Position numbers and translations under genes: made by a program
Notes under the pieces: generated by a model
The model's input: only the letters and a program-made list of their open reading frames with translations
Told to the model about the DNA's origin: nothing
Databases searched by the model: none
Assembly: GCF_013522725.1 (NCBI RefSeq)
Contig: NZ_JAAMRF010000004.1
Coordinates: 62,001-126,000, forward strand
DNA: 64,000 nucleotides
Direction: 5' to 3'
Source of the DNA: Stutzerimonas azotifigens
GTDB taxonomy: Bacteria; Pseudomonadota; Gammaproteobacteria; Pseudomonadales; Pseudomonadaceae
Shown: one piece after another, positions 24,107-30,153 of the stretch
Layout: each line of letters opens with the position of its first letter
Numbering within the stretch: the stretch's first letter is position 1

Positions 24107-25426
24107 ATGGGCCAGTGGCTCGAAACACTCACCGGCTGGCTGGGCGCCCAACCGCACTGGCTCGGTCTTGCCCTGCTGATCGCCGCCTGCGTCGAATGCC
24201 TGGCCATTGTCGGCCTGCTCGTCCCCGGAACCGTCCTGCTGTTCGCCATCGCCATGCTGGCGGGAAGTGGCGCGCTGGGCCTGGGCGAAACGCTGCTGCT
24301 GGGCTATATCGGAGGCCTGCTGGGCGATCTGATCTCCTATGCCCTGGGCCGACGCTATCACCAGAACATCCGTAAGATCCGCCCCCTGCGCAACCACCCC
24401 GAATGGCTGCTGCGGGCCGAAGGCTACTTCCAGCGCTACGGGGTGGCGAGCCTGCTCGTGGGGCGCTTCATCGGCCCGCTACGGCCGATGCTGCCGATGA
24501 CCGCGGGCATGCTGGACATGCCTTTCGGTCGCTTCCTGCTGGTCAGCCTGCTGGCGTCGGCCGGCTGGGCGATGGCCTATCTGCTGCCCGGCTGGACGGC
24601 AGGCGCTGCGTTTCGCCTGCCACTGCCGGAGGGTTTCTGGAGCGAGGCGGCGATCATCGTCGGCGGCCTGCTGCTGGTGATCGGCGTGACCGTACACGGC
24701 AGCCTGTATCGGCTGCGCTCGACCAGCCGACTGGCCGCGCTGCTCAGCGGCTGCGCGTTGCTCGCGCTGTTTCTCGCGTGGCCGCACTTCAAGGAGTTCG
24801 ACGAGGGCCTGCTGGCGGTGATCCAGGGCGAACGCAGCCTCGGCTTGGATCGTTTTATGGTGGTGGTGACCCGCTTTGGCGATTTTCGCGCTCAGTTGCT
24901 GGCCGGGGTACTGCTCTGCTCGCTGCTGCTGGTGCTGCGTCAATGGCGCGCGGCGCTGTTCGCGATCATCGCGCTGCTCGGTACGGCACTGGCCAATGGC
25001 ACACTGAAAGCGTCCTTTGCCCGAATGCGCCCGGAGGTGATTCTCGAGCCGCTGAGTTCCTACAGCTTCCCCTCGGGTCACGCCTCGGCCAGCTTTGCGT
25101 TCTTCCTCGTGCTCGGGCTGCTCGCGGGGCGTGAGCAGCCCCCACGAATGCGCCTGACCTGGCTGCTGCTTGCCAGCCTGCCGGCCACGGCAATCGCCCT
25201 TTCGCGCGTTTATCTGGGGGTGCACTGGCCGACCGACGTGATCGGCGGCGCCTTGCTGGCAGCGACGTTCTGCGCAGCCGCGCTGGCGCTCAGCCAGTGG
25301 CGTGCTCCGCTTAGCGCGCTGCGGCCGAAGGTCTGGTGGATCCTGATGCCGGCCTGCCTGGCCATGCTCGGCGCCTATGCCCTGTGGGCCTTGTCCGGCG
25401 CCTTCGAGCTGTATCGCTACGAATGA
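24107..25426 (+). CDS. DedA-PAP2 fusion membrane protein
   Basis: Polytopic membrane protein of 439 residues with two fused domains. Residues about 1-185 form a DedA/SNARE-associated domain ([40 protein letters not shown]). Residues about 215-415 form a PAP2 phosphatase with its three motifs: K301 in [13 protein letters not shown]322-325, and SRVYLGVH with H373. DedA proteins of the UptA group flip undecaprenyl phosphate, and membrane PAP2 enzymes dephosphorylate undecaprenyl pyrophosphate, so the fusion could couple both steps of lipid-carrier recycling; that is inference. Phosphatidylglycerophosphate or LPS-related substrates are alternatives. It is divergent from proA. Confidence 0.88.
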
Positions 25427-26029: not shown

Positions 26030-26746
26030 TTACAACAACAGGCTGACAGCCAACGGCAACAGCACCGCAGTCATCACGCCCATCAGGCTCATCGCAAGGG
26101 CCGCAAAGGCACCGCACTCCTCACTCTCCTGCAACGCCTGGGCCGTGCCGACCGCATGCGCACTCAACCCCAGCGCCATGCCGCGGGCCGCAGGATGCTG
26201 AACACCAAAGCGGCGTAACAGTTCCGGCCCGAGGATGGCGCCCAGCACGCCGGTGATCATCACGAAGACCGCCGCCAGCGCAGCGATGCCGCCGATCTGC
26301 CCAGCCACCAGCATGGCGATGGGCGAGGTCACCGACTTGGGCGCCAAGGTCATCAGCATCAGACGCTCAGTGCCGAACGCCCAGGCCAGGGCCATGCCCA
26401 AGGCCGTCGCGCTCGCTCCACCGATGAGCAAGGTCAGCATGATCGGAGAGAACAGCTCGCGAATCCGCCGCAAATTCAGATAGAGCGGCACCGCCAGGGC
26501 CACGGTCGCCGGCCCGAGCAGCACGGTCAGCCACTGGGCACTCGCGGCATATTCGGTGTATTCGATACCGCACGCCAGCAGCACACCGATCACCAGCACC
26601 ATCGACACCAGCACCGGCTGCAGGAATACCCACCGGGTTTTCTCATAGGCGGCGCAGGCCAACTGATACACCGCCAGGGTGATTGCCACCGCGAACAGCG
26701 GATGATGAACCACCGCTTGCCACGCAGCCTGCCATTGCAATGTCAT
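26030..26746 (-). CDS. lrgB: LrgB/CidB-family membrane protein
   Basis: Inner-membrane protein of 238 residues with about six to seven hydrophobic segments and the LrgB signatures LAPKSVTSPIAM and GMALGLSAHAVGTAQALQ. In Staphylococcus, CidB/LrgB act with the holin-like CidA/LrgA on murein hydrolase activity and cell death; in other bacteria they have been linked to glycolate or pyruvate transport. The start overlaps the lrgA stop (ATGA). Which of the two roles applies here cannot be read from the sequence. Confidence 0.9.
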   Translation of the reverse strand: MTLQWQAAWQAVVHHPLFAVAITLAVYQLACAAYEKTRWVFLQPVLVSMVLVIGVLLACGIEYTEYAASAQWLTVLLGPATVALAVPLYLNLRRIRELFSPIMLTLLIGGASATALGMALAWAFGTERLMLMTLAPKSVTSPIAMLVAGQIGGIAALAAVFVMITGVLGAILGPELLRRFGVQHPAARGMALGLSAHAVGTAQALQESEECGAFAALAMSLMGVMTAVLLPLAVSLLL

Positions 26747-27105
26747 GCGACCTCCCGACGGCGCTGCTGGCGCCGGATCAGGGCCTGCATCAACCAGCCG
26801 GTGAACACCAGCGAGATCACCAGCGACAACACCAGCACGCCGACGATCGCCCAAAAGTCCCGCACGATCGCTCCGGTATAGGCCATCACACCGACCGCTG
26901 GCGGTACCAGCAATAGCGGCAGATAACGCAGCAGGCTGCTCGCCGCGAGCTGCAACGATTGGCCGGCGCTACCACGCACCAGCAAGGTCACGAACAACAG
27001 CAGCAGCCCGACGATCGGCCCCGGCAGGATGGACAGAAACAGCACGTTGATCGCCGTACCCAGCAACTGAAACAGGACCAGCCAGGTCAGGCCACGTAGC
27101 AACAT
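26743..27105 (-). CDS. lrgA: LrgA/CidA-family holin-like protein
   Basis: Small membrane protein of 120 residues with four hydrophobic segments and the CidA/LrgA motif LPGPIVGLLLLF. ATG 27105 is preferred because GAGGAGG stands 7 bases upstream; an open frame reaches 27147 but without a ribosome site. It is first in a three-gene operon with lrgB and the LON-domain gene. No LysR-type regulator of the CidR kind adjoins it. Confidence 0.9.
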   Translation of the reverse strand: MLLRGLTWLVLFQLLGTAINVLFLSILPGPIVGLLLLFVTLLVRGSAGQSLQLAASSLLRYLPLLLVPPAVGVMAYTGAIVRDFWAIVGVLVLSLVISLVFTGWLMQALIRRQQRRREVA

Positions 27106-27281
27106 CGGAAGCCTCCTCAAAAAGTGGGCGGGCATTATAAAGGGCATACCGGTATCGCCCAGTTGCCACCCTCGACAGCACGCTATGGCAGGTCATTCGC
27201 CACGGCCATGCTTGGTTGACCCTCTGCAAAGCGCATGCTGATCTACCGAACCCCCATAACAAGACCTCTTCAGGAGGACGC

Positions 27282-27737
27282 ATGCCGCAAGTTCCCGTTA
27301 CAGAACTAAAGGACTATATAGGCAAGGACCTCGGCCGGTCCGAGTGGTTGACCATCGACCAGGATCGCATCGACCGCTTCGCCGATTGCACAGGCGACCA
27401 CCAGTTCATCCATGTTGACCCGGAAAAGGCCAAGCTCACTCCCTTCGGCACCACCATCGCCCACGGCTTTCTCTCTCTCTCGCTGATCCCCATGCTGATG
27501 GGGGACCTGCTGGTGCGCCCAGAAGGCACGAAGATGGGCATCAACTACGGGCTCGACAGCGTGCGCTTCATTCAGCCGGTCAAGGTCGGATCGCGGGTGC
27601 GCCTGAACGTGACGCTGCTCGACGCCTACGAGAAGAACCCCGGCCAGTGGCTCCTGAAAGCGCGCGTCGAGATGGAGATCGAGGGCGGCGACAAGCCGGC
27701 CTACATCGCCGAGACCCTGGCACTCTGCTTCGTCTGA
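27282..27737 (+). CDS. MaoC-like (R)-specific enoyl-CoA hydratase
   Basis: Single hot-dog-fold MaoC dehydratase domain, 151 residues. The hydratase 2 motif is present as FADCTGDHQFIHVDPEKA followed by FGTTIAHGFLSLSL, with Asp and His as the likely catalytic pair. Such enzymes hydrate trans-2-enoyl-CoA, and PhaJ-type members feed PHA synthesis; the substrate here is unknown. Good ribosome site CAGGAGG before ATG 27282. It is divergent from lrgA. Confidence 0.88.
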   Translation: MPQVPVTELKDYIGKDLGRSEWLTIDQDRIDRFADCTGDHQFIHVDPEKAKLTPFGTTIAHGFLSLSLIPMLMGDLLVRPEGTKMGINYGLDSVRFIQPVKVGSRVRLNVTLLDAYEKNPGQWLLKARVEMEIEGGDKPAYIAETLALCFV

Positions 27738-27810: not shown

Positions 27811-29493
27811 ATGCGCCGCCTGCTGTCCTTCACACTTGCCCTGCTCCTCGCCGCCTGCGGCGAGGGCGAACCCCTGATCCCGCCCGATGCCCGGCTGCCC
27901 GACGGCGGGCGCTACCGAGGCGAGCTTGTCGGCGGCCTACTGCAAGGCGAAGGGCGTATCGATTACGCCAACGGCAGCTTCTACAGCGGGAGCTTCAAGG
28001 CCGGCCAGTTGAGCGGGCCAGGGATCTGGGAGGGACCCAGCGGCGACCGCTACGAAGGAGAGTTCTCCGCCGGACTGTTCGAGGGTGTCGGGGTCTTCCG
28101 CTACGCCGAGGGCGCCGTCTACGAAGGGCAGTTCCGCCTCGGCCGGATGGAAGGCAAAGGTGTCTTCAGCCAGGGCGGCATGCGCTACGAAGGCGACTTT
28201 TTGCGTGACCGCTACCATGGGCAGGGCCGCCTGACCTATCCCGACGGACAGGTATACGAAGGCCAGTTCGCCAACGGCCAGCCACACGGCGAAGGCATGC
28301 GCCGCGAGGGTACGGACACCTACCAGGGACACTTCGTCAATGGCGTGCTCGACGGCCAAGGCAGCTTCAGCTCCGGCGACGGCGAACGCTACGAAGGCGG
28401 CTTCGCCAATGACCGCATGGATGGCCAGGGACGCTACGAAAGCGCCAGCGGCGATATCTGGAGCGGCACCTTCAGCGAGGGTGAACTGACCGGACAAGGC
28501 CAGCACATCGGCAGCGACGGCAGCCGCTACGAAGGCGGCTTTCGCGGCTGGCGCTACCACGGCCAAGGCCGCCTCGACTTTCCCGATGGCAGCCATTACC
28601 AGGGCGGCTTTCGCTACGGTCAGTTCCACGGCAAGGGCGAACGCGTGCTGGCCGACGGGCGCAGCGAATCGGGAAACTGGCGCGGCGGCCGTCGCGTCAG
28701 TGATGAGCAGGGCCAGCCGCTGGCCGATCCTCTGGAAATCGGCCTGCTGAATCAGGGCCGCCTGCTCGACGAAGCGCTCCAAGCCCTGCCCGCCTCGACA
28801 CCTGCTGCCGAACTCTACAGCCTGACCTTCGCCGGCGACGGCCAGCAGAGCGTGTTCCTGCGCGAGGCCGATTTCGTCAGCCGACTACTGAGCGAACGCT
28901 ACCGCGCCCGCGGACAGATCACGCTGGTCAACCACCGCGACCACCTCGCCGACCGCCCCCTGGCGACCCGGGAGAACCTTCGCCGGGCAATCGAGGCCCT
29001 TGCCAAGGCCAGCGGGCCGGAGGACCTGCTGTTCTTCTATTTCACCAGCCACGGCTCGGCGGATCACCAACTGGCCATCGACCAGCCGCGTCTGACGCTG
29101 GATAACCTGCCGGCGGCCGATCTTGCCCAGCTATTGCAACCGCTGGCAGATCGCAACAAGGTCGTGATTATCTCGGCCTGCTATTCGGGCGGTTTCATCG
29201 AGCCGCTCAAGAATGCGCATACCCTGGTGATGACCGCCGCTCGAGCCGACCGGGTTTCCTTCGGCTGTTCGGAAGAGAGCGATTTCACCTATTTCGGCCG
29301 CGCGCTGTTCGCCGAGGCACTGACCCGCACGGACGATCTGGCCGAGGCCTTCGAACTGGCGAAAGCCCATGTTGCCGAACAGGAACAGGCTGAGCAGTAT
29401 CAGCCATCGGAACCCCAGCTCTGGGCCCCCGAAGGGGTACTTGCCCACTGGCGCAGGCTACAGGACACCCAGCCCGCCCACTCGGATGACTGA
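27811..29493 (+). CDS. MORN-repeat lipoprotein with C13 (caspase-like) peptidase domain
   Basis: Predicted lipoprotein of 560 residues. Signal peptide with lipobox LLLAAC (Cys16). Residues about 33-285 hold eleven recognisable MORN repeats of 22-23 residues (YEGxFxxGxxxGxG pattern) plus a degenerate twelfth. Residues about 320-530 form a legumain/C13-type caspase-fold domain: the catalytic His414 lies in FTSHGSAD after the strand LLFFYF, and Cys457 in IISACYSGGF. Both residues of the dyad are intact, so it is probably an active envelope cysteine peptidase. MORN repeats bind lipids or proteins in other systems. ATG 27811 starts the signal peptide; upstream frame is not signal-like. Substrate and biological role are unknown. 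Confidence 0.88.
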   Translation: MRRLLSFTLALLLAACGEGEPLIPPDARLPDGGRYRGELVGGLLQGEGRIDYANGSFYSGSFKAGQLSGPGIWEGPSGDRYEGEFSAGLFEGVGVFRYAEGAVYEGQFRLGRMEGKGVFSQGGMRYEGDFLRDRYHGQGRLTYPDGQVYEGQFANGQPHGEGMRREGTDTYQGHFVNGVLDGQGSFSSGDGERYEGGFANDRMDGQGRYESASGDIWSGTFSEGELTGQGQHIGSDGSRYEGGFRGWRYHGQGRLDFPDGSHYQGGFRYGQFHGKGERVLADGRSESGNWRGGRRVSDEQGQPLADPLEIGLLNQGRLLDEALQALPASTPAAELYSLTFAGDGQQSVFLREADFVSRLLSERYRARGQITLVNHRDHLADRPLATRENLRRAIEALAKASGPEDLLFFYFTSHGSADHQLAIDQPRLTLDNLPAADLAQLLQPLADRNKVVIISACYSGGFIEPLKNAHTLVMTAARADRVSFGCSEESDFTYFGRALFAEALTRTDDLAEAFELAKAHVAEQEQAEQYQPSEPQLWAPEGVLAHWRRLQDTQPAHSDD

Positions 29494-29511: not shown

Positions 29512-30153
29512 ATGTATCTGACGCCCCAGCGCATTCTGCTTGCCGGCGCCACAGGCCTCACCGGCGAGCATCTGTTGGACCGACTGCTCAACGAGCCCAC
29601 GGTGGAGTGCGTGTTGGCGCCCACCCGCCGCCCTCTGGCCGAGCATCCACGCCTGGAAAACCCGGTCGGCGAACTGGAGGCGCTGTTGCCACAGCTGTCC
29701 GGGGACATCGATACCGCCTTCTGCTGCCTGGGCACCACGATCAAGCAGGCCGGCAGCGAAGAGGCCTTTCACGCCATCGACCATGACCTGATTGTCGCCT
29801 TCGCGCAGCGCGCACGGGAGCTGGGCGCCCGACATCTGCTGGTGATCAGTTCGCTGGGTGCGGACGTGGATTCGCGTTTTTTCTACACCAGAGTCAAGGG
29901 CGAGGTCGAACGCGACCTGATTGCCCAAGACTGGCCCCAACTGACTATCGCGCGGCCTTCGCACCTGCTTGGCACGCGCATCGAGCCGCGCCTGAGCGAG
30001 CAGCTTGCTGGGCCGCTCACGCAATTGCTGCCGGGCAAGTATCGCGGCATCGACGCCTGCGCCCTGGCCTGGGCACTTTGGCGGCTTGCCCTCGAGCAGG
30101 GCAACGGCGTCAGGATCGTAGAGTCCGACGAGCTGAGAAAACTCGGTCAGTAA
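29512..30153 (+). CDS. NAD(P)-binding SDR-like oxidoreductase
   Basis: Atypical short-chain dehydrogenase/NAD(P)H-binding protein, 213 residues, resembling the HTATIP2/TIP30-type family. The Rossmann motif is [14 protein letters not shown], followed by [23 protein letters not shown], the YTRVKGEVE active-site-like YxxxK, and [11 protein letters not shown]. Its substrate is unknown. It starts 18 bases after the MORN-C13 gene with a GAGAGGGAG ribosome site, so the two are probably co-transcribed. It converges on orn with only 9 bases between stops. Confidence 0.88.

Follow-up and report, generated by a model that had tools for sequence, protein, structure and literature searches.

A predicted lipoprotein joining a MORN repeat array to a C13 peptidase domain in Stutzerimonas azotifigens and its relatives

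A stretch of 64,000 nucleotides from Stutzerimonas azotifigens (contig NZ_JAAMRF010000004.1, positions 62,001 to 126,000; hereafter the window) was analyzed around one open reading frame (ORF) at 27811..29493 on the + strand. This single open frame encodes a protein of 560 residues, and homologues match it across nearly the full length. It opens with MRRLLSFTLALLLAAC, a lipoprotein signal peptide (27811..27858, +) recognized by sequence pattern: the lipobox LAAC, within the standard form LLAAC, ends at the predicted lipidated Cys16 (codon 27856-27858). Following this cysteine, residues +2 to +4 are G-E-G, from which the Lol rule predicts the outer membrane as destination. Among 46 distinct members from the Pseudomonadaceae, the lipobox pattern read C-G-[ED]-[GS] in 37, had another sequence or place in 6 and was lacking in 3. 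The only cysteines in the whole protein are residues 16, 457, and 486.

Behind the signal peptide lie 11 MORN repeats (aa 35-285; 27913..28665, +), an unbroken array with units starting at aa 35, 58, 81, 104, 126, 149, 171, 194, 217, 240, and 263. The Pfam MORN profile (PF02493) scored 141.5 bits against a cut-off of 22.5, as tandem repeats of 23 residues. The array was modeled as a continuous beta-hairpin rod, with a predicted local distance difference test score (pLDDT) of about 84-96 across aa 31-290, and Foldseek matched this rod to the MORN1 structures 6t69 and 6t68 (TMt 0.86-0.87, best-fitting chains). The MORN1 proteins of trypanosomes and Apicomplexa, which are eukaryotic and cytoplasmic, differ in having no protease domain. 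An original prediction, made from the letters alone, had described a lipobox lipoprotein with about eleven MORN repeats over some 250 residues, and both features held.

The C-terminal part is a C13 peptidase domain (about aa 331-545; 28801..29445, +). Pfam Peptidase_C13 (PF01650) reached 127.6 bits against a cut-off of 22.8, with its best stretch at aa 400-541, and the caspase profile C14 matched more weakly (38.1 bits, cut-off 21.4). The predicted catalytic His414 (codon 29050..29052, +) stands within SHG and the predicted nucleophile Cys457 (codon 29179..29181, +) within SACYSGG, as originally proposed. Evidence for the C13 fold comes from Pfam, Foldseek, and VIA-align 2, despite the low confidence of the domain model. 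For comparison, the C13 domain of the window was aligned with relatives from searches of the family, order, class, phylum, and plasmids, resulting in 81 rows. An HG...C motif was demanded when the domains were cut, and zero supplied rows failed. Left out beforehand were two loci with fragmented frames (L035 and L078), one without C13 hit (L111), the weak class-level loci L138-L142 and near-duplicate family loci. Invariant in all 81 rows were F349, H414, G415, C457, G460, S483, G485, C486, E525, S533, and P535, and position 455 was Ser in 80. Cys486 (codon 29266..29268, +), the second invariant cysteine of the domain, belongs to an S-F-G-C motif. A distant short group (L094, L098, and L101; frames of 241-290 aa) carries GHG and SACFSG without MORN or polytopic anchor.

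Legumain, the asparaginyl endopeptidase of MEROPS family C13, shares the Pfam family and the fold, and its His and Cys align with those of the MORN-C13 protein. Its S1 asparagine pocket includes Glu187 and Asp231. In the legumain profile alignment, which did not reach the pocket residues nearer the N-terminus, the Glu two residues before the legumain Cys corresponds to Ser455 and the pocket Asp to Arg497. Position 497 varied across the 81 rows (R 33, K 11, E 11, D 10, Q 6, N 4, A 3, G 1). A legumain-type asparagine pocket is thus not conserved over the alignable part, and because both residues are replaced and position 497 varies, specificity for asparagine is not expected. The protein stops at residue 560, 103 residues after Cys457; since the ORF ends so shortly after the C13 match, there is no C-terminal prodomain of the kind that legumain possesses.

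The same domain raises the question of transpeptidation. Like the glycosylphosphatidylinositol (GPI) transamidase subunit GPI8/PIGK or the plant C13 peptide ligases, the enzyme might cut an envelope protein and join the new end to an amine, serving anchoring or cross-linking. In the fold comparison, caspase, metacaspase, and legumain rows tied with GPI8/PIGK (Z within 1), and no partner subunits or GPI substrate are known for the MORN-C13 protein. GPI is not known from these bacteria, and no acceptor or sorting signal was found, none having been sought. Transpeptidation is therefore considered unlikely, and hydrolysis is preferred.

Both parts of the gene appear to be maintained. The closest named relative found, from S. 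nosocomialis, is 89% identical, and the ratio of nonsynonymous to synonymous substitution rates against it was 0.11-0.16 for the whole gene, with both halves similar, which indicates purifying selection. Across the 46 distinct family members, median pairwise identity was 54.2% for the MORN region versus 72.6% for the C13 region. The ORF, its domains and the His and Cys residues are far beyond chance, and we regard the anatomy of the lipoprotein as settled with high confidence.

MORN takes its name from membrane occupation, and the original prediction had cast the array as a lipid-binding arm; such an arm might bridge or sense membranes, with the protease responding to lipid state. A gene with DedA and PAP2 domains lies nearby in the family, and TbMORN1 interacted with individual phospholipids according to the accessible text of its structural study (PMC7725318). 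That same text describes no binding of MORN1 to membranes or vesicles, and proposes protein-protein interaction and dimerisation instead (PMC7725318). The net charge of the MORN region was negative in 41 of the 42 MORN-form members of the alignment, conservation in the 46 family members was 0.96 at motif positions and 0.59 at the others, and the number of repeats drifts from 3 to 12 among relatives. Because the arrays are acidic, poorly conserved outside the motif and drifting in repeat number, they look like scaffold or docking rods rather than binders of anionic lipid. As stated, the lipid-binding arm did not hold up, and we think it quite unlikely. Two other MORN proteins were encountered: a deltaproteobacterial one (L037, 5755-7692) with a long MORN run behind a likely signal sequence and no peptidase domain seen, and one from Azospirillum argentinense (L111, 1399-3495) with the reverse order of an N-terminal caspase (C14), SH3, and C-terminal MORN, adjoined by a kinase and a PP2C phosphatase.

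Matches to the MORN-C13 protein (E <= 0.001) were obtained in 133 of 198 sampled Pseudomonadaceae genomes. One match spanned nearly the whole query in 102 of these; some others were weak (G012, E 2.3e-4). At higher ranks, genomes with a PF01650 match numbered 52 among 293 from the order and 62 among 398 from the phylum (59 above the Pfam cut-off). At class level, the C13 profile matched 33 of 369 sampled genomes, with strong matches in 25 (E below 1e-40, the own genome included). The gene is thus common in the family and patchy outside it, and the expectation that such peptidases are rare in bacterial envelopes was not borne out. Within the order, 50 of the 52 positive genomes had a single C13 locus and two (G335 and G352) had two each; these paired genes (L083, L164, L085, and L161) are all of the MORN type. 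In S. stutzeri RM2 (L035, 5926-7715), the C13 gene and its neighbors rsgA and motB are in pieces, which looks like assembly errors and not gene decay.

The N-termini of the 81 C13 proteins fell into 42 with at least three MORN repeats, 23 without MORN but with at least three predicted membrane helices, and 16 with neither. By simple pattern and hydropathy, all 42 MORN forms carry a lipobox and/or one or two hydrophobic stretches. One catalytic domain is thereby found with three anchor types across Gammaproteobacteria: lipoprotein with MORN, one transmembrane helix with MORN, and polytopic without MORN. For the polytopic type of family f35, our reading of one sequence (L054) by the positive-inside rule would place the C13 domain in the periplasm. 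On the C13 tree, which has many weak forks, the MORN label required at least four changes over the 81 rows versus a shuffled mean of 27.1. A single origin of the fusion, tested as a strict one-clade model, was rejected (p-AU 6.7e-5, approximately unbiased test; 41 versus 36 rows) on 77 rows, from which L099, on a long branch, and three short proteins of f44 had been omitted. MORN and polytopic forms did not occur together in any of the 51 order-level positive genomes read (all but G470). This pattern fits, without proving, one shared function with exchangeable tethers.

Two known genes are informative for comparison. In P. aeruginosa, the orthologue (CP109682.1, OI911_00450) is annotated as 'peptidase C13' in the public record, with the gene order DedA/PAP2, LON, LrgB, LrgA, MaoC, C13, oxidoreductase, YceK lipoprotein, ubiX, mpl. 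In the accessible part of one paper, a table equates mpl with PA4020 (PMC10187892); counting back, and assuming the same gene calls, the C13 gene is therefore PA4016. Its product is 58.7% identical over 96% of the query, with 11 MORN repeats, lipobox, SHG, SACYSG, and the same gene order, and no important difference was seen. A P. aeruginosa envelope proteome table, as far as accessible, lists PA4016 with values of 0.19 and <0.05 for two overproducers of major facilitator superfamily (MFS) pumps (PMC7835679), which we read as lowered abundance.

The second is the A. baumannii gene CP040048.1, FDE89_18865, annotated as 'peptidase C13 family protein' (PF01650, 128.6 bits). Its protein is 36% identical over aa 315-536 and has SHG and SACYSG, but MORN repeats are absent and four membrane helices are predicted instead; the single hit of the lipobox pattern is at frame position 51, outside an N-terminal signal. 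The neighbors also differ, being fghA and then ribulose-phosphate 3-epimerase. The A. baumannii C13 falls among four f35 loci on the tree (SH-aLRT 98, a likelihood-ratio branch support), and three of these four share two downstream neighbors, read by eye as fghA- and rpe-like, as in A. baumannii. As all eight positive f35 genomes had one C13 match apiece, the gene is probably abrp. Membership of the MORN-C13 protein in the Abrp orthologue group was considered and rejected, the N-terminus being different and the C13 domains lying in separate branches. Deletion of abrp is described in the accessible text of reviews as giving higher membrane permeability, slower growth, and altered antibiotic susceptibility (PMC10203620, PMC5346588, PMC10838990), and a peptidase C13 gene appears among early polymyxin-response genes in the accessible text of another study (PMC4872528).

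In the window, the gene lies between a MaoC-like dehydratase gene upstream (27282..27737, +; PF01575) and an NAD(P)H-binding oxidoreductase gene directly downstream (29512..30153, +; Pfam HIM1 / NAD_binding_10). Divergent from this run are the LrgB and LrgA genes (26072..27147, -), a CidA-like holin pair conserved beside it in Pseudomonadaceae. Among 41 Pseudomonadaceae loci, including three pairs in which the same genome was fetched twice, the oxidoreductase followed the C13 gene in all 41, MaoC preceded it in 37 and LrgA was near in 39; the order MaoC, C13, oxidoreductase is accordingly conserved in the family. The C13 gene and the oxidoreductase gene may be co-transcribed, as about 18-20 bases separate them in 28 of the 41 loci (range 11-113). 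A functional pair was nonetheless rejected and no mechanism drawn: the oxidoreductase was found in 162 of the 198 family genomes (E <= 1e-20) versus 133 for the protease at the threshold given above, is present in G015 without C13 match, and so does not depend on the protease.

Outside the family, thirteen further genes of the window were compared with the surroundings of the C13 gene in 34 loci, and none had a match there. In these loci, from 14 other families and with genes taken as the longest non-overlapping frames, no neighbor cluster recurred in more than two families. With the gene order kept only within Pseudomonadaceae, reading a substrate from the neighbors was rejected; the neighbor scans gave no pointer, in agreement with the original view that nothing nearby names the substrate. 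A promoter scan revealed no promoter-like site, and terminator-like sites numbered 3 versus 2.0 expected, which is uninformative. The window also contains a fusion of DedA/VTT and PAP2 phosphatase domains (24107-25426, +), which several genomes of the family retain close to the C13 locus. In family f43 (L090, L093, L097, and L100), the MORN-C13 gene lies near a run read by eye as YhdP-, nitrilase-, and TldD/PmbA-like.

The holin-like pair suggests a further explanation, in which a caspase-like protease triggered by envelope damage acts in cell death or against phage, perhaps with LrgA/LrgB. The caspase fold, the presence of LrgA in 39 of the 41 family loci and a weak PADLOC caspase match (30 bits, E 7.4e-8) are compatible with it. 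The NCBIfam model for EACC1-associated caspases (NF047832), however, reached 41.3 bits where 140 are required, and in the 34 loci from other families the surroundings of the C13 gene contained no Lrg match. PADLOC applied to six neighbors, LrgB not among them, gave no match for five and a general exonuclease model for the sixth, an oligoribonuclease. The conserved gene order, the usually single copy in each genome, and the purifying selection resemble those of a housekeeping gene, and an effector of this kind is considered very unlikely.

We prefer, with a probability of about 0.5, to read the protein as a periplasmic cysteine protease that is tethered to the membrane and serves routine maintenance of the envelope. 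Following processing by signal peptidase II and Lol sorting, the protein would be attached to a membrane, most likely the outer one, on its periplasmic side. The rod of MORN repeats, an estimated 10 nm or so long if each repeat forms one beta-hairpin, would hold or dimerise the protease away from the membrane, or dock it on a partner. The His414/Cys457 dyad would then cut a single envelope protein, or a few of them, at a site other than the asparagine of legumain. Elsewhere, the same job may be done from an inner-membrane polytopic anchor (the Acinetobacter form, probably Abrp) or from a single transmembrane helix, and loss of the MORN-C13 protease would be non-lethal but would upset the integrity and permeability of the envelope. 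Counted in support are the fold calls, the invariant residues, the higher conservation of the C13 than of the MORN region, and a tether kept while the anchor changes. Further support comes from the single locus per genome, the PA4016 entry in the envelope proteome and the permeability effect of abrp.

Several points weigh against this reading. The protease activity, the cleavage of envelope proteins, and the localisation of the lipoprotein are all predicted. The structure predictions were built on five-row alignments, and the C13 domain model had a mean pLDDT of 58.2, with the His414 and Cys457 loops below 50; neither a failing fold match nor a separation of the two residues emerged, but a model of this confidence is a weak witness. 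The link to permeability passes through the inferred identity of the Acinetobacter gene as abrp, through a domain in a different branch from the MORN forms, and through reviews that, in their accessible text, conflict on the direction of the susceptibility change. Moreover, 65 of the 198 family genomes had no match, including G015 among the 32 same-genus genomes listed (that of the window counted), so that the function is dispensable. In C. elegans killing, one PA4016 insertion allele, in a delta-exoU background, was attenuated and a second allele was not, according to the accessible text (PMC3406104).

The attenuated allele, together with the ability of lipoproteins to reach the surface, could instead speak for a protease that is exported or displayed on the surface and targets hosts or competitors. 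The effect was not reproduced with the second allele, the gene occurs in 133 of the 198 sampled family genomes and no secretion-system gene was identified among the immediate neighbors; such a role is regarded as highly improbable.

Beyond the preferred envelope-maintenance protease, a wider proposal can be made tentatively, and we hold it to be less probable than its opposite. Much of the C13-bearing Gammaproteobacteria may have one envelope caspase-like protease per genome with a single conserved job, whose membrane address has been rewired by swaps of anchor and arm (inner-membrane polytopic, inner-membrane helix with MORN rod, outer-membrane lipoprotein with MORN rod). The rod would be a reach or docking device letting the outer-membrane protease reach the substrate of the inner-membrane forms, a bacterial counterpart of GPI transamidase and similar C13 enzymes tethered to membranes.

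No description of the MORN-C13 architecture was found in the searchable literature, and a word search of the text of a survey of prokaryotic caspase homologues (PMC3501461) returned no occurrence of MORN, C13, or legumain. To that extent, the claim of an undescribed architecture stands; it does not extend to the gene, already a peptidase C13 in public annotation. The architecture is conserved and already annotated in databases, and is a variant of a known enzyme type and not a new kind. Family C13 is mainly familiar from enzymes of lysosomes and plant vacuoles and from GPI anchoring. That Pseudomonas-type bacteria conserve a tethered C13 protease in their envelope points to an unmapped processing step in envelope maintenance, and this role can be put to the test because the Acinetobacter C13 gene is reported to affect permeability. 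The repeated exchange of anchors amounts to a natural experiment on the distance from the membrane that the enzyme requires.
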